Shown: piece after piece, positions 17 through 14,542 of the stretch
Numbering within the stretch: the stretch's first letter is position 1
Layout of the letters: the number at the start of each line of letters is the position of its first letter
DNA from: a virus
Direction: 5' to 3' (one strand)
Length of the DNA: 28,205 bases
Virus record (IMG/VR): IMGVR_UViG_3300042473_000589
Span: 1 to 28,205 of that record
Position numbers and translations under genes: made by a program
The notes under the pieces: model-generated
Told to the model about the DNA's origin: nothing
The model's input: only the letters and a program-made list of their open reading frames with translations
Databases searched by the model: none

Positions 17-712
17 TTATGCCTTAAAATTATCTCTTACTTGAAACTTATTCCAATCATATGGAATAATATTATCTTGCCAATTACGCTTTTTGATTAT
101 GTGCGTGAGAATAGGTAATTCAAAATCTCGTGCATCTTCTAATGCAGTATGCGGTTCAATAATAAAATTATTATTAATATATCCGCAAACCATTTCCGCA
201 TTAGTTTTAAATGTCATATTACCATGTTTAGTAACATTATTAAAACCGTGATTATCTAAACAGAATTGTTTATATTTTTTGGTTTTGCAGATATTACCGA
301 CCGAGGCTTGCCATAAACAAAACTTACTATTAAATCCTGATAAATCAATACCAGTATTAGCGCATTTATTAATATCAAAAGGCAGATTATATGCGGTTAA
401 TGTAGGATTATATTTGCCGATTGCCTGATTAATCCATTTATTGATAGCATTAACTGATGCAATCATTCTGACGCCAGTTTCTAACATGGCAATATAGCCC
501 ATTTTGCGTTTAGTTAATCCTTCATAACCCCAAATATCATTTTTAGTTTTATCGTGGAATAATTCCATAGTATTATAATGCCCATTAACTAATACCGCAC
601 ATTGATTATATATAATCCCCTCACGATCACAGATAATCATGGCAAAATCTGCCACAGTATCGCCCATTGTGGTTTCTGTGTCCAGAATACAAAAGTATTG
701 CTTTTTAGCCAT
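17..712 (-). CDS. DEDDh (DnaQ/RNase T-like) 3'-5' exonuclease
   Basis: The 231-aa protein has the exonuclease motifs in order. Motif I is LDTET with D11 and E13, motif II is AYNLPFD with D113, and motif III is PHTALEDAR with H188 and D193. His five residues before the last Asp defines the DEDDh subclass, whose two-metal centre removes nucleotides from 3' ends of DNA or RNA. No polymerase domain is attached and the length fits a stand-alone enzyme. In a phage such proteins usually serve replication, repair or nucleotide salvage; which one applies here is not visible. ATG at 712 is preceded by AAGG. The gene is the first one leftward of control block 1, so it is probably regulated from the palindrome at 766-783. 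The family call is secure; the substrate is unknown. Confidence 0.85.
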   Translation of the reverse strand: MAKKQYFCILDTETTMGDTVADFAMIICDREGIIYNQCAVLVNGHYNTMELFHDKTKNDIWGYEGLTKRKMGYIAMLETGVRMIASVNAINKWINQAIGKYNPTLTAYNLPFDINKCANTGIDLSGFNSKFCLWQASVGNICKTKKYKQFCLDNHGFNNVTKHGNMTFKTNAEMVCGYINNNFIIEPHTALEDARDFELPILTHIIKKRNWQDNIIPYDWNKFQVRDNFKA

Positions 713-738: not shown

Positions 739-744
739 ATTTTA
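739..744 (-). promoter_or_regulatory. Possible -10 box of the exonuclease gene
   Basis: On the minus strand the hexamer reads TAAAAT, 27 bases upstream of the start at 712. No good -35 is present: the hexamers 17-18 bp upstream are ATGTTA/TATGTT and touch the palindrome at 766-783. If the promoter is real, a protein bound to that palindrome would cover its -35 region. This is the weakest of the leftward promoters. Confidence 0.35.
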
Positions 745-765
745 CACGCTTGCACAAAAAATAAC

Positions 766-783
766 ATAGGTGTAAACACCTAT
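766..783. promoter_or_regulatory. Operator-like palindrome, copy 1
   Basis: ATAGGTGT-AA-ACACCTAT is a perfect inverted repeat with 8-bp arms and a 2-bp centre. The same 18 bp occur at 1820-1837 and 2564-2581. In each copy the last base is the first base of a rightward -35 box. Size and placement are typical of a dimeric helix-turn-helix repressor or activator site. The binding protein is not known. Confidence 0.75.
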
Positions 784-812
784 TGACAAACTGGGCGAGG
801 GTGTGGTAAAAT
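783..812 (+). promoter_or_regulatory. Rightward promoter, control block 1
   Basis: The -35 TTGACA (783-788) and -10 TAAAAT (807-812) are separated by 18 bp. The -35 matches the sigma70 consensus perfectly and shares a base with the palindrome at 766-783. No ORF follows within 90 bases; the downstream sequence is hairpin-rich and then antisense to the microprotein gene at 904-1056. Confidence 0.65.
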
Positions 813-818
813 TGGCGC

Positions 819-887
819 CTGTGGTTTTTTCGCAACAGTCGCTTTAAGCGACCAGTTAAAACTGAAAACAAAAGTATTCAGTTTTTG
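819..887 (+). ncRNA. Possible small structured RNA 1
   Basis: The predicted transcript starts near 819 and has no start codon with a ribosome site. It contains the hairpin GTCGCTTTAAGCGAC (838-852) followed by AAAACTGAA (858-866) pairing with TTCAGTTTT (877-885) and a further T, which resembles a weak intrinsic terminator. The first 40 bases after the promoter (GGCGCCTGT, then GCAACAGTCGCTT, then AAGCGAC) are nearly identical in copy 2. Promoter, shared hairpins and lack of coding content support an RNA of about 70 nt; this is inference. Confidence 0.4.
858..886. terminator. Bidirectional terminator-like hairpin
   Basis: AAAACTGAA / TTCAGTTTT forms a 9-bp stem with a 10-nt loop and A/T runs on both sides. 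It could end the rightward RNA from 812 and the leftward microprotein operon that ends at 904. The stem is AT-rich, so it may be inefficient. Confidence 0.45.
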
Positions 888-903
888 TGGGAAACAAAAG
901 TAT

Positions 904-1056
904 TCATTTGTCCATAATGAATCTTTTATATTCTTGCATATTATTATGATAATCCCAAGTACCCAGCATTAGTAATGGCAAGATAATAGTTACTAAAATT
1001 TTATCGGGTCTGGAATATATAAAATGCCAGATTATCTGTGAGAATGTTTTAATCAT
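904..1056 (-). CDS. 50-aa single-pass membrane microprotein
   Basis: The peptide starts MIKTFSQIIW and ends FIMDK. It contains a hydrophobic stretch around residues 20-32 (KILVTIILPLLMLG), suitable for one membrane span, flanked by charged residues. Its ATG overlaps the stop of the 29-aa gene upstream in an ATGA junction, the usual sign of translational coupling. It is the last gene of the leftward operon headed by the HAD phosphatase. No family is recognised. Small phage membrane proteins of this type can be host-takeover, superinfection-exclusion or lysis-helper factors, but nothing here picks one. The gene has no Shine-Dalgarno site of its own, which fits coupling. Confidence 0.55.
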   Translation of the reverse strand: MIKTFSQIIWHFIYSRPDKILVTIILPLLMLGTWDYHNNMQEYKRFIMDK

Positions 1057-1142
1057 TTATCTAACCAATTTAAAAGTACAATTTTAATTGCAACAAAAAC
1101 AACAAAACCAATGCAAAAATATAAAGCTTGAATATCAGTCAT
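1053..1142 (-). CDS. 29-aa membrane microprotein
   Basis: The ORF encodes MTDIQALYFCIGFVVFVAIK followed by IVLLNWLDK. Almost the whole chain after residue 6 is hydrophobic, so it is a single membrane helix with a short acidic N-terminus and a charged C-terminus. Its ATG directly follows the stop of the upstream 50-aa gene, and its stop overlaps the next ATG by four bases. The end-to-end packing of three short ORFs argues that all are translated. No homologue is recognised; function unknown. Confidence 0.5.
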   Translation of the reverse strand: MTDIQALYFCIGFVVFVAIKIVLLNWLDK

Positions 1143-1295
1143 TTAATGTATTCTCTTAGTTAATATGTCTAAAATCTGTCTTAATGGCATTTGCATTATT
1201 TCCGATATATCATAAAGATTTAAGCCTTCGGCTAAAAAATCTTTAATTAATGTCTCGGCATAATCAATATTAATGCCCTTGTTTACTTGGTACAT
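1143..1295 (-). CDS. 50-aa soluble microprotein, possibly a small helical regulator
   Basis: The ORF starts MYQVNKGINI and ends LTKRIH. It is acidic in the middle and basic at the end. The segment ETLIKDFLAEGLNLYDISEI resembles the helix-turn-helix spacing of small regulators (an alternating hydrophobic helix, a turn at GLN, a second helix), but the match is loose. A clear AAGGGG Shine-Dalgarno site lies 5 nt before the ATG and sits inside the HAD gene, which this gene overlaps by 26 bases. That overlap with its own ribosome site is the best evidence the ORF is real. Function unknown. Confidence 0.6.
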   Translation of the reverse strand: MYQVNKGINIDYAETLIKDFLAEGLNLYDISEIMQMPLRQILDILTKRIH

Positions 1296-1746
1296 ATACA
1301 CCCCTTATATTAAATCTGTCACAAACCGCTTTTAGATAATTTGTATTATCTTCGTAAAATGTAAATTCAGCATCTTTAAATGTAACTAAATTAAAGAACT
1401 TAGCCAAACCATTAATTTTTAATAAACTACCAGAGATATTAGAATTCTCAGGTCTTGAAATAATATAATCAGGGTCGCCCAATATCGAGTTAATAAATGT
1501 ATAATCAGGGGTATTAAGAACACGGGCAGTAGCAATAATGACATAACACGATTCATCTTTTAAATCCATTTTATATTGTTCGGCTAATGGCAAAAGAGAA
1601 TCATTTAATGCTAAATCCTGATTTTCTCTCCAGTAATTTAAATCTATTCTTTCGCCTGACTCATCTACGATTGTGCGATACCTATGCAAACTGCAAACAA
1701 TAGTTCCATCCATATCATAAATTGAAACCTTTTTAATTTTAGCCAT
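1270..1746 (-). CDS. HAD-superfamily phosphatase
   Basis: The 158-aa protein has HAD motif I as YDMDGT (nucleophile D11, acid/base D13), motif II as IIATAR (T73), a lysine candidate for motif III near K110, and motif IV as YEDN (E132/D133). The overall size and the ATAR signature resemble the phosphatase half of T4 polynucleotide kinase-type enzymes and phage nucleotide phosphatases; no kinase P-loop is present. Likely roles are 3'-phosphate removal from nucleic acid ends or nucleotide dephosphorylation; the substrate cannot be read from the sequence. It is the first gene leftward of control block 2, and three microprotein genes follow without gaps. Confidence 0.75.
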   Translation of the reverse strand: MAKIKKVSIYDMDGTIVCSLHRYRTIVDESGERIDLNYWRENQDLALNDSLLPLAEQYKMDLKDESCYVIIATARVLNTPDYTFINSILGDPDYIISRPENSNISGSLLKINGLAKFFNLVTFKDAEFTFYEDNTNYLKAVCDRFNIRGVYVPSKQGH

Positions 1747-1772
1747 TTTGTAATCCTTTTCTGTATTCTGTG

Positions 1773-1802
1773 ATTATACACAAAAAACCGATAAAAAACT
1801 AT
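1773..1802 (-). promoter_or_regulatory. Leftward promoter of the HAD operon
   Basis: The minus-strand -10 is a perfect TATAAT (1773-1778). The -35 about 18 bp upstream is poor (ATAGTT at 1797-1802), so the promoter may need an activator. The -10 lies 42 bp from the palindrome at 1820-1837, exactly the distance found in block 3. Confidence 0.5.
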
Positions 1803-1819
1803 GTGTGCAAAAATACAAC

Positions 1820-1837
1820 ATAGGTGTAAACACCTAT
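1820..1837. promoter_or_regulatory. Operator-like palindrome, copy 2
   Basis: Identical to copies 1 and 3 (ATAGGTGT-AA-ACACCTAT). The surrounding bases AAAATACAACATAGG are also identical to copy 3. It sits between the leftward HAD promoter and a rightward promoter. Confidence 0.75.
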
Positions 1838-1865
1838 TGACAGCCAAAACAGACTATGCTAAAAT
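1837..1865 (+). promoter_or_regulatory. Rightward promoter, control block 2
   Basis: TTGACA (1837-1842), 17-bp spacer, TAAAAT (1860-1865). This is the best of the three rightward block promoters. It faces the hairpin-rich stretch 1872-2022 and then the 3' end of the leftward helix-turn-helix gene. Confidence 0.7.
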
Positions 1866-1871
1866 TTGGCG

Positions 1872-2022
1872 CCTGTTGCTTTTACGCAACAGTCGCTTGA
1901 AGCGACTAGTTAATAGCGAAGTGAGTGCTTACTTCGCAGCGGGCGCAAAAATGAATACCTAGGTTTTCAAAAAATACTGAAAACCTGGGTATTCAAAAAC
2001 AAGGGGCATAAGCCCCTTGTTT
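1872..2022 (+). ncRNA. Possible small structured RNA 2
   Basis: The stretch lacks a usable ORF but holds a chain of hairpins. CTGTTGC pairs with GCAACAG (about 1873-1892); GTCGCTTGAAGCGAC is at 1892-1906; GCGAAGT (1916-1922) pairs with ACTTCGC (1931-1937); a 16-bp stem at 1953-1994 (GAATACCTAGGTTTTC with GAAAACCTGGGTATTC) has one G-T pair; the terminator stem lies at 1997-2022. Nearly every base is in a potential stem, as expected of a structured RNA and not of a spacer. The 3' end is a guess. Confidence 0.4.
1995..2022 (-). terminator. Terminator of the helix-turn-helix gene
   Basis: AAACAAGGGGC (1997-2007) and GCCCCTTGTTT (2012-2022) form an 11-bp stem with loop ATAA. Read on the minus strand it follows the stop codon at 2021-2023 and runs into TTTTTG, a standard intrinsic terminator. 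On the plus strand the T-run is shorter, but it could also end RNA 2. Confidence 0.7.
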
Positions 2023-2347
2023 ACAAGGTTTTTTCAGCCTTGATAAAGTCAGCAATTTTCATCAAAGCCATTTTATTGGCTTTAGTGAGTGATTCTGTAT
2101 CAGATTCAGCCAAACCCAACGCATCACCAATAAAATCAGCGTGAACATCTTTTTTAATTGGTGTTTCACCTGATTTCGTTTTGTATGCTTTAGCAACATA
2201 AACCTTTTCACGGCTCAATTTTGCAACAACAGAACGAACAGTTTTGCCAAGTGAATCTGCAATAGATTCAACAGTCATACCGCCTTGGTATTGGGCAATC
2301 ATTTTCTCAGTCTGATCCTGAGTGTAGTTCACGGCTTTGGTAGTCAT
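2021..2347 (-). CDS. Small helix-turn-helix DNA-binding protein
   Basis: The 108-aa protein has an N-terminal helix-turn-helix (residues about 8-50). It contains the pattern MTVESIADSLGKTVRSVVAK, where SIADSLGKT is the turn and RSVVAKLSRE the recognition helix with basic residues. A lysine-rich linker and an acidic-then-helical C-terminus follow. Proteins with this plan are common in aquatic phages and are annotated only as regulators. A strong Shine-Dalgarno site (AAGGAGAAAAGAAC before ATG) points to high expression. It lies leftward of control block 3, so it is a natural candidate to bind the block palindromes; that link is inference. Confidence 0.65.
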   Translation of the reverse strand: MTTKAVNYTQDQTEKMIAQYQGGMTVESIADSLGKTVRSVVAKLSREKVYVAKAYKTKSGETPIKKDVHADFIGDALGLAESDTESLTKANKMALMKIADFIKAEKTL

Positions 2348-2370
2348 GTTCTTTTCTCCTTTAAAAACAA

Positions 2371-2399
2371 ATTATAACATCATGGCTTCATTAACGCAA
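2371..2399 (-). promoter_or_regulatory. Promoter of the helix-turn-helix gene
   Basis: On the minus strand TTGCGT (2394-2399) and a perfect TATAAT (2371-2376) are 17 bp apart. The elements overlap the end of the 37-aa gene, so the regulator may have its own transcript in addition to read-through from 2522. Confidence 0.55.
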
Positions 2400-2493
2400 G
2401 CCATACCCACAATGGCAAAAAGGTTATTGCAACGAATAAAATAGCACATAAAATATCTTGAATTAATTTGTTTGCAAATTTAGTCATTTTCAT
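2380..2493 (-). CDS. 37-aa membrane microprotein
   Basis: The peptide begins MKMTKFANKLIQDIL, a basic amphipathic head, continues into a hydrophobic span CAILFVAITFLPLWVWLAL and ends MKP. This is the layout of a single-pass inner-membrane peptide with the N-terminus in the cytoplasm. AAGGTG precedes the ATG; the second ATG (2487) is better spaced from it (9 nt), so the true product may be 35 aa. It is the first gene of the leftward transcript from block 3 and its stop abuts the promoter of the helix-turn-helix gene. No family recognised. Confidence 0.55.
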   Translation of the reverse strand: MKMTKFANKLIQDILCAILFVAITFLPLWVWLALMKP

Positions 2494-2516
2494 TTTCACC
2501 TTTTCACCATGTGTTT

Positions 2517-2546
2517 ATTATAGCAGAAAAAACCTAAAAAGTTCAA
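2517..2546 (-). promoter_or_regulatory. Leftward promoter, control block 3
   Basis: TTGAAC (2541-2546), 18-bp spacer, TATAAT (2517-2522) on the minus strand. It drives the 37-aa peptide and the helix-turn-helix gene. The -10 is 42 bp from the palindrome at 2564-2581, matching block 2 exactly. Confidence 0.65.
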
Positions 2547-2563
2547 GTGTGTAAAAATACAAC

Positions 2564-2581
2564 ATAGGTGTAAACACCTAT
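2564..2581. promoter_or_regulatory. Operator-like palindrome, copy 3
   Basis: Same 18 bp as copies 1 and 2. It lies between the leftward promoter at 2517-2546 and the rightward -35 at 2581. Confidence 0.75.
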
Positions 2582-2609
2582 TGACTACACTTTTGTACTC
2601 TGCTAAAAT
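2581..2609 (+). promoter_or_regulatory. Rightward promoter, control block 3
   Basis: TTGACT (2581-2586), 17-bp spacer, TAAAAT (2604-2609), followed as in block 2 by TTGGCGC. It faces about 245 bases without a gene. Confidence 0.65.
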
Positions 2610-2615
2610 TTGGCG

Positions 2616-2834
2616 CGCCGCGCGTAGTACTTTGGTTTTCTAAAAAAATCCTGCAAACAAAAGTATTCATAAAAAACCTTTTTTGAATACTAGCGGTCGC
2701 TTTAAGCGACCAGTTGCAAAAGCACCCTCACGAAAAGAATTCGAACTTGCACACTGGCGCACGGATTCCGTGCGCCCAAATTGCCGAAGTGAGTGCTCAC
2801 TTCGTTGAGTAACCCTGCTGGCATCAGGGTCTTT
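2616..2834 (+). ncRNA. Possible small structured RNA 3
   Basis: This gene-free stretch holds six hairpin candidates. They are the palindrome GGCGCGCC just after the promoter, AGTATTC...GAATACT with an inner A6/T6 stem (2662-2691), GTCGCTTTAAGCGAC (2696-2710), GGCGCACGG/CCGTGCGCC (2756-2776), CGAAGTGAG/CTCACTTCG (2785-2804), and ACCCTG/CAGGGT (2812-2830) followed by CTTTT. The second GTCGC hairpin and the CGAAGTGAG hairpin are shared with RNA 2. No ORF with a ribosome site was found on the plus strand. Existence as a transcript is inferred. Confidence 0.4.
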
Positions 2835-3839: not shown

Positions 3840-3868
3840 TTGCTAAAACATCCCTAAACTGGTATAAT
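3840..3868 (+). promoter_or_regulatory. Terminase operon promoter
   Basis: TTGCTA (3840-3845), 17-bp spacer, perfect TATAAT (3863-3868), 20 bases before the TerS ATG. AAAAAGGA just downstream is the TerS ribosome site. Confidence 0.7.
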
Positions 3869-3888: not shown

Positions 3889-4362
3889 ATGACAACTCAC
3901 CTACCTGCTGAAACCGTACGTATCTCCCCGGAAGCACTGGAAGTAGCAAATGCCTACCTCCAACTTAACGACGCCCGTGCCGTAGCTCAAGAACTTGATC
4001 TAGACCCTGAAGTGGTAACTAACTTATTAGCTAAACGTGAAGTAAAAGCATACATTGATTCAGTATTCTTTGATAGTGGATACAACAACAGATTTTTGAT
4101 GCGACGTGCTATGGATGCACTAATCAAGCAGAAGTTTTCAGAGTTGGAAGAATCACAAACTGGTAGCGCCAAAGATATTGCTGAACTACTTCAAATGTCG
4201 CACAAAATGTCAATGGACTTAATGGATCGTGAAATTCAGCTAGCCAAAGCGCAACAAGCTACTGGCCCACAAAAACAAGTCAACGTACAAATCAATGACG
4301 CACTAGATGGATCAAAGTATTCACAGCTAGTGCAGCGTTTAATTACTGGTGAAGGCGTATGA
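3889..4362 (+). CDS. terS: Terminase small subunit
   Basis: The 157-aa protein has an N-terminal helix-turn-helix (about residues 20-60; the pattern ARAVAQELDLDPEVVTNLLA is typical of TerS DNA recognition domains). A helical middle (YNNRFLMRRAMDALIKQKFS) and an amphipathic oligomerisation stretch follow, then a polar tail ending LITGEGV. Length fits the family. TerS rings bind the packaging site and hand DNA to TerL. The gene directly follows the putative cos region and its own promoter. ATG at 3889 has AAGGA at a good distance. Its stop overlaps the next gene (ATGA). Confidence 0.8.
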   Translation: MTTHLPAETVRISPEALEVANAYLQLNDARAVAQELDLDPEVVTNLLAKREVKAYIDSVFFDSGYNNRFLMRRAMDALIKQKFSELEESQTGSAKDIAELLQMSHKMSMDLMDREIQLAKAQQATGPQKQVNVQINDALDGSKYSQLVQRLITGEGV

Positions 4363-4662: not shown

Positions 4663-5055
4663 ATGTTAGACTGTTTAATTTTAGGCGACTCAATTGCCGT
4701 AGGTACTCATCGACAAAGACCAGAGTGCGTAGCCTATGCTAAAGGCGGCTGGAATACCTGGCAATGGAATCGCGACTATTTAAAAAATAACTTGTCAGCT
4801 AAAACTGTAATTATCAGTTTAGGCAGTAATGACCATAGCGGAGTTAAAACTAAAGCTGAGCTGCAACGAATACGTGAAAAAGTTGGCGTTGCAAAAGTGT
4901 TTTGGATTTTACCAGCCATCAAACCACATATCCAATCCCACGTCCACGAAATTGCTCAACAGTATAACGATACTGTACTACCATTTACCCCAAGCAGCGA
5001 CAAAGTACATCCAACCACACAAGGCTATCGCGAGTTAGCAAAGGCCACAAAATAA
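4663..5055 (+). CDS. SGNH/GDSL-type hydrolase
   Basis: The 130-aa protein has the family blocks in order. Block I is LILGDSIAVG with nucleophile S10, block II the glycine of AKGGW (28-29), block III GSND with N56, and block V DKVHPTTQGY with D113 and H116. All catalytic positions (Ser, Gly, Asn, Asp-x-x-His) are intact. It is short for the superfamily, so it is a minimal domain. It could be an esterase or deacetylase acting on sugar or peptidoglycan acetyl groups; no signal peptide is present. It sits between the exported protein and TerL, and its stop and the TerL start share one base (TAATG). Confidence 0.8.
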   Translation: MLDCLILGDSIAVGTHRQRPECVAYAKGGWNTWQWNRDYLKNNLSAKTVIISLGSNDHSGVKTKAELQRIREKVGVAKVFWILPAIKPHIQSHVHEIAQQYNDTVLPFTPSSDKVHPTTQGYRELAKATK

Positions 5056-6341
5056 TGTTAGTAGTCTCACGACCAGATATCAATGTCGACGTTATCCAAG
5101 AGTTTGATCCTCAACAGAGGTTTATTAAGCTACCCATAACAAATTACCTAAAGCTGCTAGATGTATACGATACAATCAACCGCCCACAGGTTGCTTTAAT
5201 CAACGCAGTCAACGATCCCAAATACAGGTTTATCTGTGCTGCACTCGCACGCAGGCTTGGCAAAACTTATATTGCCAATATCATCGGTCAATTGGTTACC
5301 TTAGTCCCTGGGTCTAATGTCTTAATCATTTCGCCTAACTATAACTTATCTTCGATCTCATTTGAACTCCAACGCAAACTCATCAAACACTTCGACCTCG
5401 AAGTCGCACGTGACAACCTCAAAGACAAAATTATCGAACTCAGCAACGGTTCTACCATTCGTATGGGTTCTCTTAGTACCGTTGATAGTACTGTTGGTCG
5501 ATCATATGACCTAATCATATTTGACGAGGCTGCACTAGGCGAAGGCGGTGAAGCCGCCTTTAATGTGGCACTACGTCCTACACTGGACAAGCCACAAGCA
5601 AAAGCTATTTTTATCTCCACACCTCGTGGTCGAAACAATTGGTTTTCACAATTTTGGCAGCGTGGTTTTGATCCCGGTTTCCCCGAGTGGATTAGCCTGC
5701 AAGCTGATTACACAGAAAATACTCGCATGGCTGAGTCGGACGTTGCCGAAGCGCGACGATCAATGTCAAAGTCAGAGTTCGAACAAGAATATTTAGCCTC
5801 ATTTTCCGTATTTGAGGGTCAGATTTATACACTACAGGATACAGATGTTATTGACATTCCAGAAGATATTAAAGGCGAAGCGTTTGCTGGATGCGACCCT
5901 GGTTACCGAGACGCTACTGCTTATTGCGCTATCGTTTACGATTGGAACCGCGATTGCTTTTATATTGTCGATGAATACTTAAAGTCGGAAAAGACTACAG
6001 CCGAACACGCAGCAGAATTTACAGCAATTAATGAAAAGCACGGAGTTGAAGTTACGTTTATCGACTCGGCAGCCGCACAATTTGCTGGTGACCTTGCCTA
6101 CTTATATAACATTTCAACTACCAAAGCCAAAAAAGATGTCTTACCAGGCATTGCGTATGTTCAGACCTTGCTACAGCAGGGTCGATTAAAGGTTGCCCCA
6201 CATTGCACTAACGTGCGAGCCATGTTTGACCAGTATCGCTGGGACCAACGTGAGGGGCTACAACGTGAACGACCAATGCATGATGATTATAGTCACATGG
6301 CCGATGCAGTTCGATATGCGCTGTACACCTATACTGTTTAA
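5055..6341 (+). CDS. terL: Terminase large subunit (packaging ATPase and nuclease)
   Basis: The 428-aa protein has a variant Walker A, ARRLGKT (65-71), Walker B IIFDEA with D157/E158, and a coupling motif ISTPRG (187-192). A C-terminal RNase H-fold nuclease follows, with acidic residues D281 (GCDPG), D337 (FIDSA) and D417 (HMADAV). This is the complete motor-plus-nuclease plan, at the usual length. It drives DNA into the prohead through the portal and cuts the concatemer. It is translated from a TAATG junction with the SGNH gene. The nuclease part follows the standard order and nothing appears truncated. Confidence 0.93.
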   Translation: MLVVSRPDINVDVIQEFDPQQRFIKLPITNYLKLLDVYDTINRPQVALINAVNDPKYRFICAALARRLGKTYIANIIGQLVTLVPGSNVLIISPNYNLSSISFELQRKLIKHFDLEVARDNLKDKIIELSNGSTIRMGSLSTVDSTVGRSYDLIIFDEAALGEGGEAAFNVALRPTLDKPQAKAIFISTPRGRNNWFSQFWQRGFDPGFPEWISLQADYTENTRMAESDVAEARRSMSKSEFEQEYLASFSVFEGQIYTLQDTDVIDIPEDIKGEAFAGCDPGYRDATAYCAIVYDWNRDCFYIVDEYLKSEKTTAEHAAEFTAINEKHGVEVTFIDSAAAQFAGDLAYLYNISTTKAKKDVLPGIAYVQTLLQQGRLKVAPHCTNVRAMFDQYRWDQREGLQRERPMHDDYSHMADAVRYALYTYTV

Positions 6342-6419: not shown

Positions 6420-6857
6420 ATGGCAAAAAACACAAATAAGCGAATCCCTGTAAAGTGGGTTCGTGATAGGGCCAAAGCGGCCTACGAGAAGAAAACGGAG
6501 TGTTGCGTTTGTGGCTCTGCCACAGACTTAGAACTCCATCACCTACATTCAGTTACTATACTCCTAGACAAATGGTCTGAAGCCAAGGGTTACGATATTT
6601 CAACAGATGCCGGTATTTTAGCTGTGCGAGATGAGTTTATTGATGAGCACCAAGTAGAGTTATATGACCAAGTTTACACCCTTTGTAATCGTCATCATGT
6701 AGCGTTACACAGTGTTTACGGTAAAGCTCCCCGCCCTGGCAGTGAACCCAAACAGGCTCACTGGATAGAGACGCAGCGTGCAAAACATACTGGTGGTGTG
6801 GTGGAAGCAGTTGTACCCAAAAAGAGCTTTGGTAGTTTTTTCAGTGAGTTCACTTAA
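6420..6857 (+). CDS. HNH endonuclease of the packaging machine
   Basis: The 145-aa protein (numbered from ATG 6420) has a zinc pair C28-x-x-C31, the HH of LELHHLH (40-43) and a second knuckle LCNRHH (C89, H92, H93), a complete HNH treble-clef. HNH proteins encoded beside the terminase are a known part of cos-type packaging machines, where they stimulate TerL cleavage of cos. Start choice: an in-frame GTG at 6402 is closer to the promoter, but MAKNTNKRIPVKWVRD looks like the natural N-terminus. GGAG precedes ATG 6420 by a rather long 12 nt, so the GTG start stays possible. Confidence 0.82.
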   Translation: MAKNTNKRIPVKWVRDRAKAAYEKKTECCVCGSATDLELHHLHSVTILLDKWSEAKGYDISTDAGILAVRDEFIDEHQVELYDQVYTLCNRHHVALHSVYGKAPRPGSEPKQAHWIETQRAKHTGGVVEAVVPKKSFGSFFSEFT

Positions 6858-8051: not shown

Positions 8052-10007
8052 ATGGTAGATAAAAGTAAAATACTGTTTTTAAACAGTTCATTTATCAAGA
8101 GCGATACCACCGACGAAAAGACAACTAGTATAACAATCGAAGGGTACGCAAGTACTGATGACATTGATAGACAAGGCGACATTGTCCCAGCAAGTGTATG
8201 GAAAAAGGGTATACAAAATTATTTGAAGAATCCAGTAATTTTGGCATATCACAACCATAGCGAGCCAGTTGGTAGGATGGTAGATCACAGAGTTGACAGT
8301 AAAGGATTGTGGGTTAAAGCCCGTATTTCTTCAGCAGCTGACGAAGTTTTCAATCTTGTAAAAGATGGCATCTTAACGGCATTTAGTATCGGCTTCCGAA
8401 TCGTAGATGCGGAATATGATGCAGCCAAAGAGTTGTTTGTGGTAAAAGAGCTAGAACTGCACGAAATTTCAGTAGTGTCAGTACCAGCTAATCAAAATAC
8501 ACTATTTAGTCTTTCTAAGGCGTTTGATACAGCCGAAGAATTTAAATCTTTCAAACAGCAGTTTGCACCCGAAAGCGATTCAGCTAAAGGGCTAGAATCC
8601 TCAACGGAAGCAATCAGCGAAATTAAAAAGGAATGGGAAATGGATCCTAAACAATTAGAACAAATGTTGGCTGATGCAGCTAACAAAGCGGCTGAGCTCA
8701 CTGCTAAAGCCATCGCCGACTCACAGGCAAAAGCATTGGCCGAAAAAGCCGCTGCTGATAAAACAGAAGCCGAATTAGATGCACGCGTTAAAGCCGCTGT
8801 TGCTTCTATCTCTACTGGCGACACAGGTGCTGAGCGCTTGATGGCCGAAGTTGAGAAGCGTTTAGCTGCTGCTGAAGATTCAAGCAAATCAGTTATCGCT
8901 GGTTTAGAGGCTTCTTTGAAAGAAAAAGCTGCTGAAATCGAAGCAATCACAAAATCAAAAATGTCTTTCCAAGACAGCAAAGACGTTTTGGCTTACGCTG
9001 ACAAAGAAAAAGCAATTATGTTGGCTAAAATGGCTGGTAAGTCATTGGACGGCACAAAATTTGGTCGTGAATTAGTACAAAAATACGGTGCTCACCAGCC
9101 TTCAGGCACAACCGGCACTTGGGAACTTGAAGTTTCATTAAACATGGAAAATGAAGTTCGTCGTCGTTTAGTTGTTGCTCCTATTTTCCGCAACATCGCT
9201 ATGCAAACCAATGTCATGACCATGCCAGTGAATCCAGAAGCAGGAACTGCTACTTGGGTTACTAACGCTGAGTTTGGTAACGTTGCTGCTGCTCCTGGTA
9301 CATCAACTATTGGCGCTTCTGCTGGTGCTACACAAACCCACGCTTTCAAAGAAATCACTTTGAATGCTTATAAACTTGCCACAAACGAGTATACAGCATA
9401 CGAAGAAGAAGAAGATTCTTTGATCGCTTTGATGCCAATGATTCGTGACGGTATGATTCGTCGTGTTGCTCGCGCCGTTGACAAGGCTTTCTTGTTAGGT
9501 GCTGGTTCTGGTTCCGACCCTGTCAAAGGTTTGGCAAACTGGGCTACTAACACCACTGCTACTGGTAACACTATTGCCGCCGGCATGAACGTTGCTAAGC
9601 TTCGCACATTGCGTCAAGGTTTAGGTGCATGGGGTCTGGATCCATCAGAAGTAATTTATATCATTAATACTGATACTTATTACCAATTGCTGGAAGACAC
9701 AACCTTCCAAACAATGAACCAAGTTGGTACACAAGCTACACTGTTAACCGGTCAAATCGGTCAAATCGGTGGAAGCCCTGTGTTGGTCTCTGCAGAGTTC
9801 GCTTCCCCAGGTACTGGTGTTGCAGGCGCTATTGCATTGCACCCAGGCAACTTTATCGTTGGTAATCAGCGCGGTCTCCGCATTGATACCCAAGAGTTGG
9901 TTGAAACACAACGTCGCGTTATGGTGGCTAGCCTCCGTACTGGCATGACACGTGTTACTACTAATTTAGGTAACGCTGTTGCAGCACACAAGTACACAGC
10001 AACCTGA
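8052..10007 (+). CDS. Fused prohead protease, scaffold and major capsid protein
   Basis: One 651-aa ORF carries what are usually two or three genes. Residues 1-165 are an HK97-type (S78/U35) prohead protease: IEGYAST at the start, catalytic H67 in LAYHNHSEP, S112 in FSIGF, then HEISVVSVPAN with E138. Residues about 197-330 are an Ala/Glu/Lys-rich coiled coil like the HK97 delta/scaffold domain. Residues about 350-651 are an HK97-fold capsid protein (GTWELEVSLNMENEVRRRLV through the C-terminal RVMVASLRTGM). AAAGGGG precedes the ATG. There is no frameshift or stop between the parts. An internal start (8640) probably supplies most capsid subunits; full-length protein would be a minor protease carrier. 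Confidence 0.88.
   Translation: MVDKSKILFLNSSFIKSDTTDEKTTSITIEGYASTDDIDRQGDIVPASVWKKGIQNYLKNPVILAYHNHSEPVGRMVDHRVDSKGLWVKARISSAADEVFNLVKDGILTAFSIGFRIVDAEYDAAKELFVVKELELHEISVVSVPANQNTLFSLSKAFDTAEEFKSFKQQFAPESDSAKGLESSTEAISEIKKEWEMDPKQLEQMLADAANKAAELTAKAIADSQAKALAEKAAADKTEAELDARVKAAVASISTGDTGAERLMAEVEKRLAAAEDSSKSVIAGLEASLKEKAAEIEAITKSKMSFQDSKDVLAYADKEKAIMLAKMAGKSLDGTKFGRELVQKYGAHQPSGTTGTWELEVSLNMENEVRRRLVVAPIFRNIAMQTNVMTMPVNPEAGTATWVTNAEFGNVAAAPGTSTIGASAGATQTHAFKEITLNAYKLATNEYTAYEEEEDSLIALMPMIRDGMIRRVARAVDKAFLLGAGSGSDPVKGLANWATNTTATGNTIAAGMNVAKLRTLRQGLGAWGLDPSEVIYIINTDTYYQLLEDTTFQTMNQVGTQATLLTGQIGQIGGSPVLVSAEFASPGTGVAGAIALHPGNFIVGNQRGLRIDTQELVETQRRVMVASLRTGMTRVTTNLGNAVAAHKYTAT
8628..8642 (+). 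promoter_or_regulatory. Internal ribosome binding site for the capsid protein
   Basis: AAGGA (8628-8632), 7-nt spacer, ATG (8640-8642), in frame inside the protease-capsid ORF. It is stronger and better spaced than chance inside a coding region would suggest. Confidence 0.7.
8640..10007 (+). CDS. Nested scaffold-capsid product from an internal start
   Basis: ATG 8640 is in frame with the fusion (codon 197) and is preceded by AAAAAGGA ending 7 nt upstream, one of the best ribosome sites in the window. The product of 455 aa begins MDPKQLEQMLADAANKAAEL, exactly where the coiled-coil scaffold segment starts, after the protease and its linker. It would resemble the HK97 capsid precursor (delta domain plus capsid domain), later trimmed by the protease. 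This mirrors lambda C/Nu3 nesting. Codon use after this point is richer in GGT, CGT and GCT than in neighbours, as expected of the most expressed protein. Translation here is inferred. Confidence 0.7.
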   Translation: MDPKQLEQMLADAANKAAELTAKAIADSQAKALAEKAAADKTEAELDARVKAAVASISTGDTGAERLMAEVEKRLAAAEDSSKSVIAGLEASLKEKAAEIEAITKSKMSFQDSKDVLAYADKEKAIMLAKMAGKSLDGTKFGRELVQKYGAHQPSGTTGTWELEVSLNMENEVRRRLVVAPIFRNIAMQTNVMTMPVNPEAGTATWVTNAEFGNVAAAPGTSTIGASAGATQTHAFKEITLNAYKLATNEYTAYEEEEDSLIALMPMIRDGMIRRVARAVDKAFLLGAGSGSDPVKGLANWATNTTATGNTIAAGMNVAKLRTLRQGLGAWGLDPSEVIYIINTDTYYQLLEDTTFQTMNQVGTQATLLTGQIGQIGGSPVLVSAEFASPGTGVAGAIALHPGNFIVGNQRGLRIDTQELVETQRRVMVASLRTGMTRVTTNLGNAVAAHKYTAT

Positions 10008-12862: not shown

Positions 12863-14542
12863 ATGGCAGCAGTTAATTTAATTCGTAATAGTAGAGTCTT
12901 CTTTACTACTAACATTGACAGTTTCGGTCGTGTAAAAATTGGTGACTTCAAAAATGCTGGAAGTCCCATGACCGCAACTAATACTTTCGAAATTCAAGTG
13001 CTGGAAGGCATGAGCTTTTCACAAAATACTACTGTAGATACAGTTACACTAAACGAGGCAGGAGCTGCTCCTGTTCGTGGTCAGCGCAGTTTTAACACTG
13101 CCCTAGAGCCAGTAGACTTTACTTTCTCTACATATATTCGCCCACATAACACAGGTAGTTCAATTACTGCCGAAGAGCAGTATTTATGGAATGCTTTTGG
13201 TGGTGCAGCTAACTTTGGTGCCGCTGGTGCCGCTTGGACTTCTACAGCATCTACTGGTACTGTTGGATTTACTAATTCTAATAAACATCAATTATTGCCT
13301 TTTGGTTTAATTATCCTATTTGATAATGCTGGTTACGTTATTGATAACTGCGCCTTAGATTCTGCTACTATTGATTTTGGTATTGACGCTATTGCTGCAG
13401 TTGCATGGGCCGGTAAAGGTTCCGCAATTCGCGTAGTAGATAAGGCTGCAGCAGATACAGCAAGTCCTGTTGCGCTTACAAACGTAGGTACTTCAACCAG
13501 TAGCTTTGCAGGCACTAATACTGCGCTTGCCAAGAATACCGCAGCTCGTTATATTACTAACAAGTTGAGCACTTTAATTGTTAATGACGGTATCAATGAT
13601 TTTGTTGCCACTGCTGGCGGAGCCGTAACGGCCGTTACAGTTGGTACCGCTGGTTCTGGTTATACCTCTGTACCTACAGTAGCTTTTGCTGCAGCACCTT
13701 CTAATGGTGTAACAGCTACAGGTACCGCAGTATTGTCTGGTGGCGGTGTAACAGCAGCAGCAGTATCTGCTCCTGGAACTGGCTACACAGCTGCAACAGT
13801 AACATTCTCTGCCCCTCAGGTTGCTAATGGTGTAACTGCACTAGGTACCGCAACAGTTTCTGGTGGCGGTGTAACAGCTATTGTAATTACAACAGCTGGT
13901 ACTGGGTACACTTCTGCTCCAACAGCCACTATTGCTGGTGATGGTGCTGGCGCCACTGCAGGTGCAGTTACTATAGGTACTTCTACTATTACTGGTGTTA
14001 CAATTACTAACGCAGGTTCTGGATATTTGACTGCACCAGCAATTACCTTTACTGGTGGTGGCGGTTCAGCTGCTGCTGCAACTCCTACAATTGCAGCTAA
14101 TGTTGGTACTGTGTATACTATTGCTTTAACTGGTGGAAACATCACTTTTGCTAATAACTTAACGTATTTGACACCTGCTAACTTAGGTACAGTTAACTTA
14201 CCTATTACGTACTTCACAGGTACGCGCGCTATAAGCGGCACTATCAATGCATACCTAAAAACAGGTAGTCTTGAAAGTGGTGGACTATTATCTGATTTGC
14301 TGGCCCAATCAGCTACAACAGTCGACCCTAAGTTTACAATTAATGTACAACTTGGCGGACCTAGTACAAATGCTACTGGTGTTGAAATCAAGCTACCTGC
14401 AGCTATGTTGCAGATTCCTACAATTAACACAGAGCAAGTTATTTCTACAACAATTAACTTTACAGCTCAAGGTTTTGCAGGTACTGGTTACGATATTACA
14501 GAGTCTAACGAAGCAACTATCGTTTACCGCGCAGCAGTTTAA
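12863..14542 (+). CDS. Major tail tube protein with a four-repeat insertion
   Basis: The 559-aa protein opens like a siphovirus tube protein (NSRVFFTTNIDSFGRVKIGD, EIQVLEGMSFSQNT, ALEPVDFTFSTYIRP). It ends with the matching tube strands (GTINAYLKTGSLESGGLLSD to ISTTINFTAQGF). Residues about 253-413 hold four copies of a 40-residue unit with the core V-T-x-V-x-x-T-A-G-S/T-G-Y-T-S-A-P, rich in Gly, Ala, Thr and Val. Such units occur in phage decoration and surface proteins and probably protrude from the tail. AAGGAATAGCT precedes the ATG. The gene has its own terminator (14562). Without the insertion the length would be usual for the family. Confidence 0.75.
   Translation: MAAVNLIRNSRVFFTTNIDSFGRVKIGDFKNAGSPMTATNTFEIQVLEGMSFSQNTTVDTVTLNEAGAAPVRGQRSFNTALEPVDFTFSTYIRPHNTGSSITAEEQYLWNAFGGAANFGAAGAAWTSTASTGTVGFTNSNKHQLLPFGLIILFDNAGYVIDNCALDSATIDFGIDAIAAVAWAGKGSAIRVVDKAAADTASPVALTNVGTSTSSFAGTNTALAKNTAARYITNKLSTLIVNDGINDFVATAGGAVTAVTVGTAGSGYTSVPTVAFAAAPSNGVTATGTAVLSGGGVTAAAVSAPGTGYTAATVTFSAPQVANGVTALGTATVSGGGVTAIVITTAGTGYTSAPTATIAGDGAGATAGAVTIGTSTITGVTITNAGSGYLTAPAITFTGGGGSAAAATPTIAANVGTVYTIALTGGNITFANNLTYLTPANLGTVNLPITYFTGTRAISGTINAYLKTGSLESGGLLSDLLAQSATTVDPKFTINVQLGGPSTNATGVEIKLPAAMLQIPTINTEQVISTTINFTAQGFAGTGYDITESNEATIVYRAAV
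13618..14103 (+). repeat. Four-unit coding repeat in the tail tube gene
   Basis: Units of about 120 bp encode VTAVTVGTAGSGYTSVP, VTAAAVSAPGTGYTAAT, VTAIVITTAGTGYTSAP and ITGVTITNAGSGYLTAP. Shared DNA words such as GGTGGCGGTGTAACAGC recur at unit joints. The base composition is richer in G and C than the flanking tube sequence. Confidence 0.75.

Follow-up and report, generated by a model that had tools for sequence, protein, structure and literature searches.

The window considered here is a 28,205-bp linear IMG/VR virus record (IMGVR_UViG_3300042473_000589, positions 1 to 28,205), in the early region of which three intergenic blocks each combine an 18-bp palindrome with a strong rightward promoter followed by the motif GGCGC. 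These blocks are members of a real module that forms a large, lineage-wide family in phages whose proteins mark them as T5-like (Demerecviridae-related). According to the reading favoured here, held with slightly better than even confidence, the modules would be operator-controlled non-coding antisense promoters and probably also nick sites.

The 18-mer ATAGGTGTAAACACCTAT, made of two 8-bp arms around an AA centre, occurs exactly at three sites, each time inside a 25-mer (AACATAGGTGTAAACACCTATTGAC) of which the window has three exact copies, versus 0 expected from shuffles. Every palindrome abuts a rightward TTGAC(A/T)-17/18-TAAAAT promoter followed by (T)TGGCGC, and the three promoters rank among the strongest promoter matches of the first 4 kb. 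In blocks 2 and 3 a leftward TATAAT lies exactly 42 bp from the palindrome (1820-1778 = 2564-2522 = 42), whereas block 1 has a leftward TAAAAT at 22 bp. A preliminary description of this DNA had reported the palindrome, the abutting promoters, the 42-bp spacing and the separation of leftward open reading frames (ORFs) by the blocks, all of which were confirmed. It had also called the blocks near-identical, which is true of a 33-bp core but not of the flanks (75% alike over 87 nt on the left of blocks 2 and 3, 85% over 59 nt on the right of blocks 1 and 2). Missed at that stage were a GTCGCTT..AAGCGAC hairpin (three copies in the window), a second repeated dyad resembling GAATACnnnnGTATTC (eight sites) and the absence of a rightward gene downstream of the block promoters: in the 5' part of the window the genes run leftward, and no notable rightward ORF follows the rightward promoters. 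The components of the blocks are as follows, the slash marking a candidate nick position.

766-783, no strand: block 1 palindrome, operator-like TAGG-N8-CCTA (exact 18-mer; phased motif in relatives).
783-818, plus strand: block 1 rightward promoter TTGACA-18-TAAAAT-TGGCGC, with candidate nick motif G/GCGC at 814-818 (sequence and family).
739-744, minus strand: block 1 leftward -10 TAAAAT, with GTG before it, for the gene at 17-712 (from sequence only).
1820-1837, no strand: block 2 palindrome (exact 18-mer).
1837-1872, plus strand: block 2 rightward promoter TTGACA-17-TAAAAT-TTGGCGC, with partial inverted repeat GCCAAA...TTTGGC and G/GCGC at 1868-1872.
1773-1778, minus strand: block 2 leftward TATAAT (GTGTATAAT), 42 bp from the palindrome, for the Dmp-like gene.
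2564-2581, no strand: block 3 palindrome (exact 18-mer).
2581-2616, plus strand: block 3 rightward promoter TTGACT-17-TAAAAT-TTGGCGC, with G/GCGC at 2612-2616.
2517-2546, minus strand: block 3 leftward promoter TTGAAC-18-TATAAT (TATAAT at 2517-2522) for the helix-turn-helix (HTH) gene cluster.

The family was delimited by sequence searches. A 20-base exact-match scan returned seven viral contigs, of which four are near-identical and three have diverged. A wider search, with two patterns in which the palindrome was dropped and the promoter and GGCGC were kept, matched at least about 120 viral stretches per pattern. The family amounts to at least 653 matches in at least 192 IMG/VR stretches, at least 530 of them distinct, and among the matches listed a single stretch bears elements on both strands. 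Related genomes of about 100 kb have one array of 2-10 elements, mostly 5-9. The earlier opinion that one such switch is usual and three are odd is thus superseded, since large related contigs carry 2-10 copies per genome. The same pattern has two matches in 84,980 cellular genomes, about the chance expectation, so that the element is lineage-specific; host promoter mimicry was rejected on the same count. When the 39-base consensus was compared by blastn with 50,697 isolate phage records, only partial, chance-like matches were obtained.

The assignment of these phages to the T5-like group is supported by the large terminase subunit TerL, about 49% identical to that of Vibrio T5-like phages, and by the protease/major head protein (MCP), 35% identical to T5-like counterparts. 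The genes around the blocks are listed below.

17-712, minus strand: DnaQ-like gene (by eye; no Pfam/PHROG match), conserved in relatives (115 loci).
1270-1746, minus strand: homologue of the T5 pre-early Dmp (deoxynucleoside monophosphatase), PHROG 'polynucleotide kinase' (tblastn E=5e-12; phrog_415).
2021-2347, minus strand: 108-aa HTH protein of the T5 A2/D5 family, candidate operator binder (hidden Markov model (HMM) vs T5; phrog_323).
3889-4362, plus strand: terS, marking the polarity of the promoter array (phrog_3802; same strand as elements, 142/142).
5055-6341, plus strand: terL, T5-like, about 49% identical to Vibrio T5-like phages.
6420-6857, plus strand: T5.153 homologue (39% identity, E=1e-29), candidate enzyme for the G/GCGC sites.

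The HMM of the HTH family matches T5 D5 with E=1.5e-9 (three repeats) and A2 with E=1.9e-6, and up to five paralogues of this A2/D5 family are found per locus. Because Dmp and A2/D5 homologues stand beside terS, the blocks can be placed in what appears to be the counterpart of the T5 pre-early/first-step-transfer region, just upstream of terS, the window being a linear fragment. As in that region, small genes have individual promoters; T5 itself, unlike the phages described here, has no antisense consensus promoters with GCGC in its pre-early region. A Vibrio T5-like isolate likewise has, to the left of terS, genes annotated as DNA-binding protein, DNA transfer protein and polynucleotide kinase, which from these annotations are taken as A2-, A1- and Dmp-like. 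A search for T5 A1 in 11 contigs, made without a positive control, gave no match by sequence.

The polarity of the elements is nearly invariant. They lie on the strand opposite to Dmp in 126/126 cases, to the DnaQ-like gene in 114:2 and to the HTH genes in 252:27, from which it follows that they are antisense to the genes they separate, and they share the strand of terS (142/142), terL (132/132) and the T5.153 homologue (76/76). In essentially every relative the rightward promoter faces the 3' ends of leftward genes. Its match to TTGACA-16/18-TATAAT of the sigma-70 type exceeds chance, and TG precedes the -10 (TGN extended -10) in 291/441 elements. On the other side of the element a leftward promoter (at least 10/12 matches) is present in 143/424 cases versus 12 in shuffles. 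A hairpin starts a few nucleotides after GGCGC in 306/439 elements (14 shuffled), rightward terminator-like sites occur within 160 nt downstream of 169/436 (11 shuffled), and a hairpin or terminator is often met 25-100 nt past the rightward promoter. In the window, the corresponding features are the following.

838-852, no strand: hairpin GTCGCTTTAAGCGAC after promoter 1.
861-886, plus strand: candidate rightward terminator ACTGAA-N10-TTCAGT-TTTT of the block 1 transcript (read from the sequence, no tool score).
1873-1936, no strand: hairpin series after promoter 2 (CTGTTGC-TTTTAC-GCAACAG, GTCGCTTGAAGCGAC and CGAAGTGAGTGCTTACTTCG).
2001-2028, no strand: overlapping terminator-like hairpins, in both directions, at the 3' end of the HTH gene.
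2696-2710, no strand: third copy of hairpin GTCGCTTTAAGCGAC.

Among the loci that include a terminase, all 497 elements are upstream of terS/terL and 0 downstream, on the same strand, as would be expected if they were late promoters of the terS/terL structural operon, whose long transcripts would feed late genes and silence the pre-early ones by antisense collision. Hairpins and terminators directly after the promoters would then call for antitermination at several sites, and terS has a promoter-like site of its own in the window (3840-3868), so that such a function is quite unlikely. Nor does the arrangement amount to a two-way gene switch. Lambda-type divergent operator/promoter switches have genes on both sides of divergent promoters; the back-to-back promoters with an operator between them are shared, but here there is no gene on the rightward side, the copies are many and the operator abuts one -35 only. 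The proposal of the preliminary description that one regulator coordinates transcription in both directions therefore stands in part: the palindrome seems to act like a protein-binding site, but the rightward promoter drives no gene.

That the palindrome behaves like the operator of a DNA-binding regulator is supported by the relatives, in which TAGG-N6-8-CCTA occurs within the 60 nt upstream of 101/435 elements versus 5.4 expected, and a control motif in 0. Its distance from the -35 is quantised, at 0 bp (82 cases), 11 bp (13), 21-23 bp (3) and 33-34 bp (2). These steps of 0/11/22/33 bp correspond to helical phasing and are the best evidence for a bound regulator. The interior of the motif is variable and often not self-complementary, which fits recognition of half-sites and not a hairpin. 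Among the encoded proteins, the 108-aa HTH protein of the A2/D5 family is the best candidate for the operator binder.

The second component, GGCGC, was evaluated on every consensus promoter of the 115 loci that have three or more elements, so as to lessen the bias of a search made with GGCGC itself. The motif is present on 479/491 (98%) promoters of the element strand, a figure inflated by the finding of the loci through GGCGC elements, and on 1/68 of the opposite strand, a contrast not explained by that alone. It starts 0-3 nt after the -10, and owing to this variable offset is not tied to the start nucleotide. In T5 the consensus of the site-specific nicks is R/GCGCRGG (PMC3517423), also given as NPu/GCGCN, with R/GCGC on one strand. 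The injection-stop nick of T5 reads GGATTTGCACAAAA/GCGCAGGGCAATTGCCCTGC (at 9748/121279), and a regular expression for its left side has that nick, in both repeat copies, as sole match in T5. In the new phages the same expression gives 33 same-strand versus 2 opposite matches, typically with a palindrome next, as in T5, while CACTGGCGC has a strand bias of 97:2 (same versus opposite strand). Iterons devoid of a -10 retain GGCGC, often as GCGCAG (for example CACTGGCGCAG), and resemble the T5 injection-stop nick in carrying GGATTTGCAC...GCGCAG and then a palindrome. Contig G001, which belongs to the species of the window, has them on the same strand, about 1.5 kb to the left of where the window starts, and some left-part promoters read as an iteron with TATAAT ahead of GGCGC. 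Members of the T5.153 family are annotated as 'nicking endonuclease' or 'SciA' in isolates, and a homologue is encoded in 14/14 contigs tested, on the element strand.

By these likenesses, the promoter GGCGC is probably a nick-type site R/GCGC. It shares with the T5 interruptions the R/GCGC core, the location on one strand, the polarity relative to terL and the presence of a T5.153-type gene. T5 nicks lack TTGACA/TATAAT and are spread over the genome, unlike the motifs here, which are fused to promoters, with several in each genome, all within the pre-early region. Alternatively, GGCGC would serve as a discriminator code only, defining one temporal promoter class read by host RNA polymerase (RNAP) with a phage factor, and no nicking would take place. 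T5 promoter classes do differ by their discriminator, the early ones sharing ATATT, and gpT5.026 weakens the contact between RNAP and discriminator (PMC7472727); GGCGC on 98% of the promoters of one strand and practically none of the other would suit such a code. The absence of a fixed position relative to the -10 and the retention of GGCGC in iterons without a -10 argue against it, and this alternative is regarded as possible, though clearly on the doubtful side. As a separate observation, TTGCACTTGACAAGGATTTCCACTGGCGCAG-type iterons stand beside palindromes in L043, L062, L067, L136 and L139 and at 13100-13160 of G001 (minus strand), in regions that look like an injection-stop or origin region.

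The promoters also contain a covarying stem. The spacer holds the exact reverse complement of its own -10/discriminator arm in 162/441 elements versus about 0.2% for other arms, and the spacer arm tracks the -10, TATAAT going with ATTAT and TAAAAT with TTTTA (p=5e-30 and 7e-47, values that ignore relatedness). With one element per locus, 73 are paired versus 27 when the arms are re-dealt (maximum 42). Loop length varies, and different arm classes coexist in one genome, which favours structure over shared ancestry. Such stems could belong to an RNA or single-stranded DNA structure (a processing site or single-strand promoter) to which the promoter match is secondary, as the own-arm complementarity, the TATAAT/ATTAT and TAAAAT/TTTTA pairing with variable loops and the wobble pairs of the H3 hairpin, which lean to the leftward RNA (80:43, among stems related to each other), would have it. 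A hairpin, however, needs neither a perfect TTGACA nor a 17/18 spacing nor a TGN extended -10, and the wobble pairs of the promoter stem, whose right arm is fixed by the promoter, have no clear strand bias; this interpretation is accordingly rated as very unlikely. A single-strand promoter like Frpo of the F plasmid was not favoured, the -35 being outside the stem.

Repeated promoters with stem-loops between early genes also recall the PeSL cassettes of T4-type phages (Arbiol 2010; Comeau 2014, as cited in PMC4503421). The likeness extends to the stem-loop following most elements and to the 875-bp median spacing, and would make the modules recombination or shuffling cassettes, whose short repeated homologies serve mainly for gene exchange in the early region. 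In PeSL cassettes the promoter reportedly serves the adjoining early gene. Here it points away from that gene, an orientation wrong for its expression, the stems covary instead of being identical, even within one genome, and the order DnaQ-Dmp-HTH-terS is apparently conserved in the contigs inspected. A recombination cassette is thus highly improbable.

The best explanation as a whole, in which our confidence is a little above even, is that of an intergenic module copied between pre-early (first-step-transfer-type) genes of an uncultured T5-like lineage. In each module a weaker leftward sigma-70 promoter would start the next pre-early gene cluster, and back to back with it the near-consensus rightward promoter would fire into the tail of the previous cluster, yielding a short non-coding RNA that ends in a hairpin. 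TAGG-N8-CCTA upstream of the rightward -35 would be the operator through which a phage regulator, perhaps of the A2/D5 family, sets the strength of the rightward promoter, and perhaps that of the leftward one as well. At the rightward start, GGCGC would probably also be the R/GCGC recognition and nick site of the T5.153-type nicking endonuclease, and such a nick would interrupt the non-template strand in the melted region of the promoter. The effect would be the insulation or timing of each pre-early unit. In a more specific and unlikely version, that of a nick-gated antisense promoter, virion DNA would arrive with breaks at G/GCGC in the melted region, flanked by hairpin-forming arms, and firing followed by later sealing would time or meter the pre-early region during stepwise DNA entry; if true, it would give T5-type nicks a role in transcription.

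Several facts weigh against this explanation. The element is absent from T5 and from the Vibrio T5-like isolate D254. In promoter elements, the base after GCGC is C in 57%, A in 33% and G in 9%, so that the RGG of the major T5 nicks is not conserved and membership in the T5 nick sites is not claimed; GGCGC could be a mere discriminator read by (modified) RNA polymerase. Within the window, blocks 1 and 3 lack the covarying stem and block 2 has only part of it. The palindrome, found in about a quarter of the elements while promoter and GGCGC are found throughout, is an optional part and not the core of the element. Finally, a gene-association test for the operator binder gave phylogeny-like associations only and singled out no binder.

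The function of the T5 site-specific nicks has been an open question since the 1960s (PMC3517423), as is the mechanism by which T5 switches between promoter classes (PMC7472727). In the present family, motifs of the nick type and of the discriminator type fall together with a strong promoter. Phages with a nicking-endonuclease homologue carry hundreds of copies, restricted to one strand and to the pre-early region; both questions become approachable on short DNA fragments, without the need for the phage. No earlier description of such a promoter + GGCGC family was found.

Other repeated sequences accompany the elements. Post-promoter hairpins (in L051, L056, L034 and others) resemble Fur boxes (AATGCGAATGATTCGCATT, AATGAGAATCATTCTCATT), and in the T5 injection-stop region a Fur-box-like sequence comes right after the nick. 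Chromosomal ParB sites of the parS type (TGTTTCACGTGAAACA) are far more frequent than chance predicts, with 18 exact copies and 26 with one mismatch in 1.8 Mb; they occur near the promoter elements in L056, L061, L071 and another 36 loci, at distances of 25-80 nt where this was checked. A ParB_N gene was not found in the 11 contigs tested, and capture of host ParB or a decoy function is possible. The GAATACnnnnGTATTC-like dyad lies at 685, 864, 890, 1953, 1979, 2653, 3570 and 3701 of the window, downstream of promoters and near the start of an endonuclease VII-like gene, and the same word forms hairpins in G006, L043, L049 and L065. Scanning the window against Rfam and for tRNAs, and its early genes against Pfam, produced no match; the reverse strand of 2696-2804 is slightly tRNA T-arm-like (GTTCGAATTC), with no tRNA called there by ARAGORN. 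At 8052-10007 the prohead protease and the major capsid protein, encoded by two genes in T5, are apparently fused in one 651-aa ORF.

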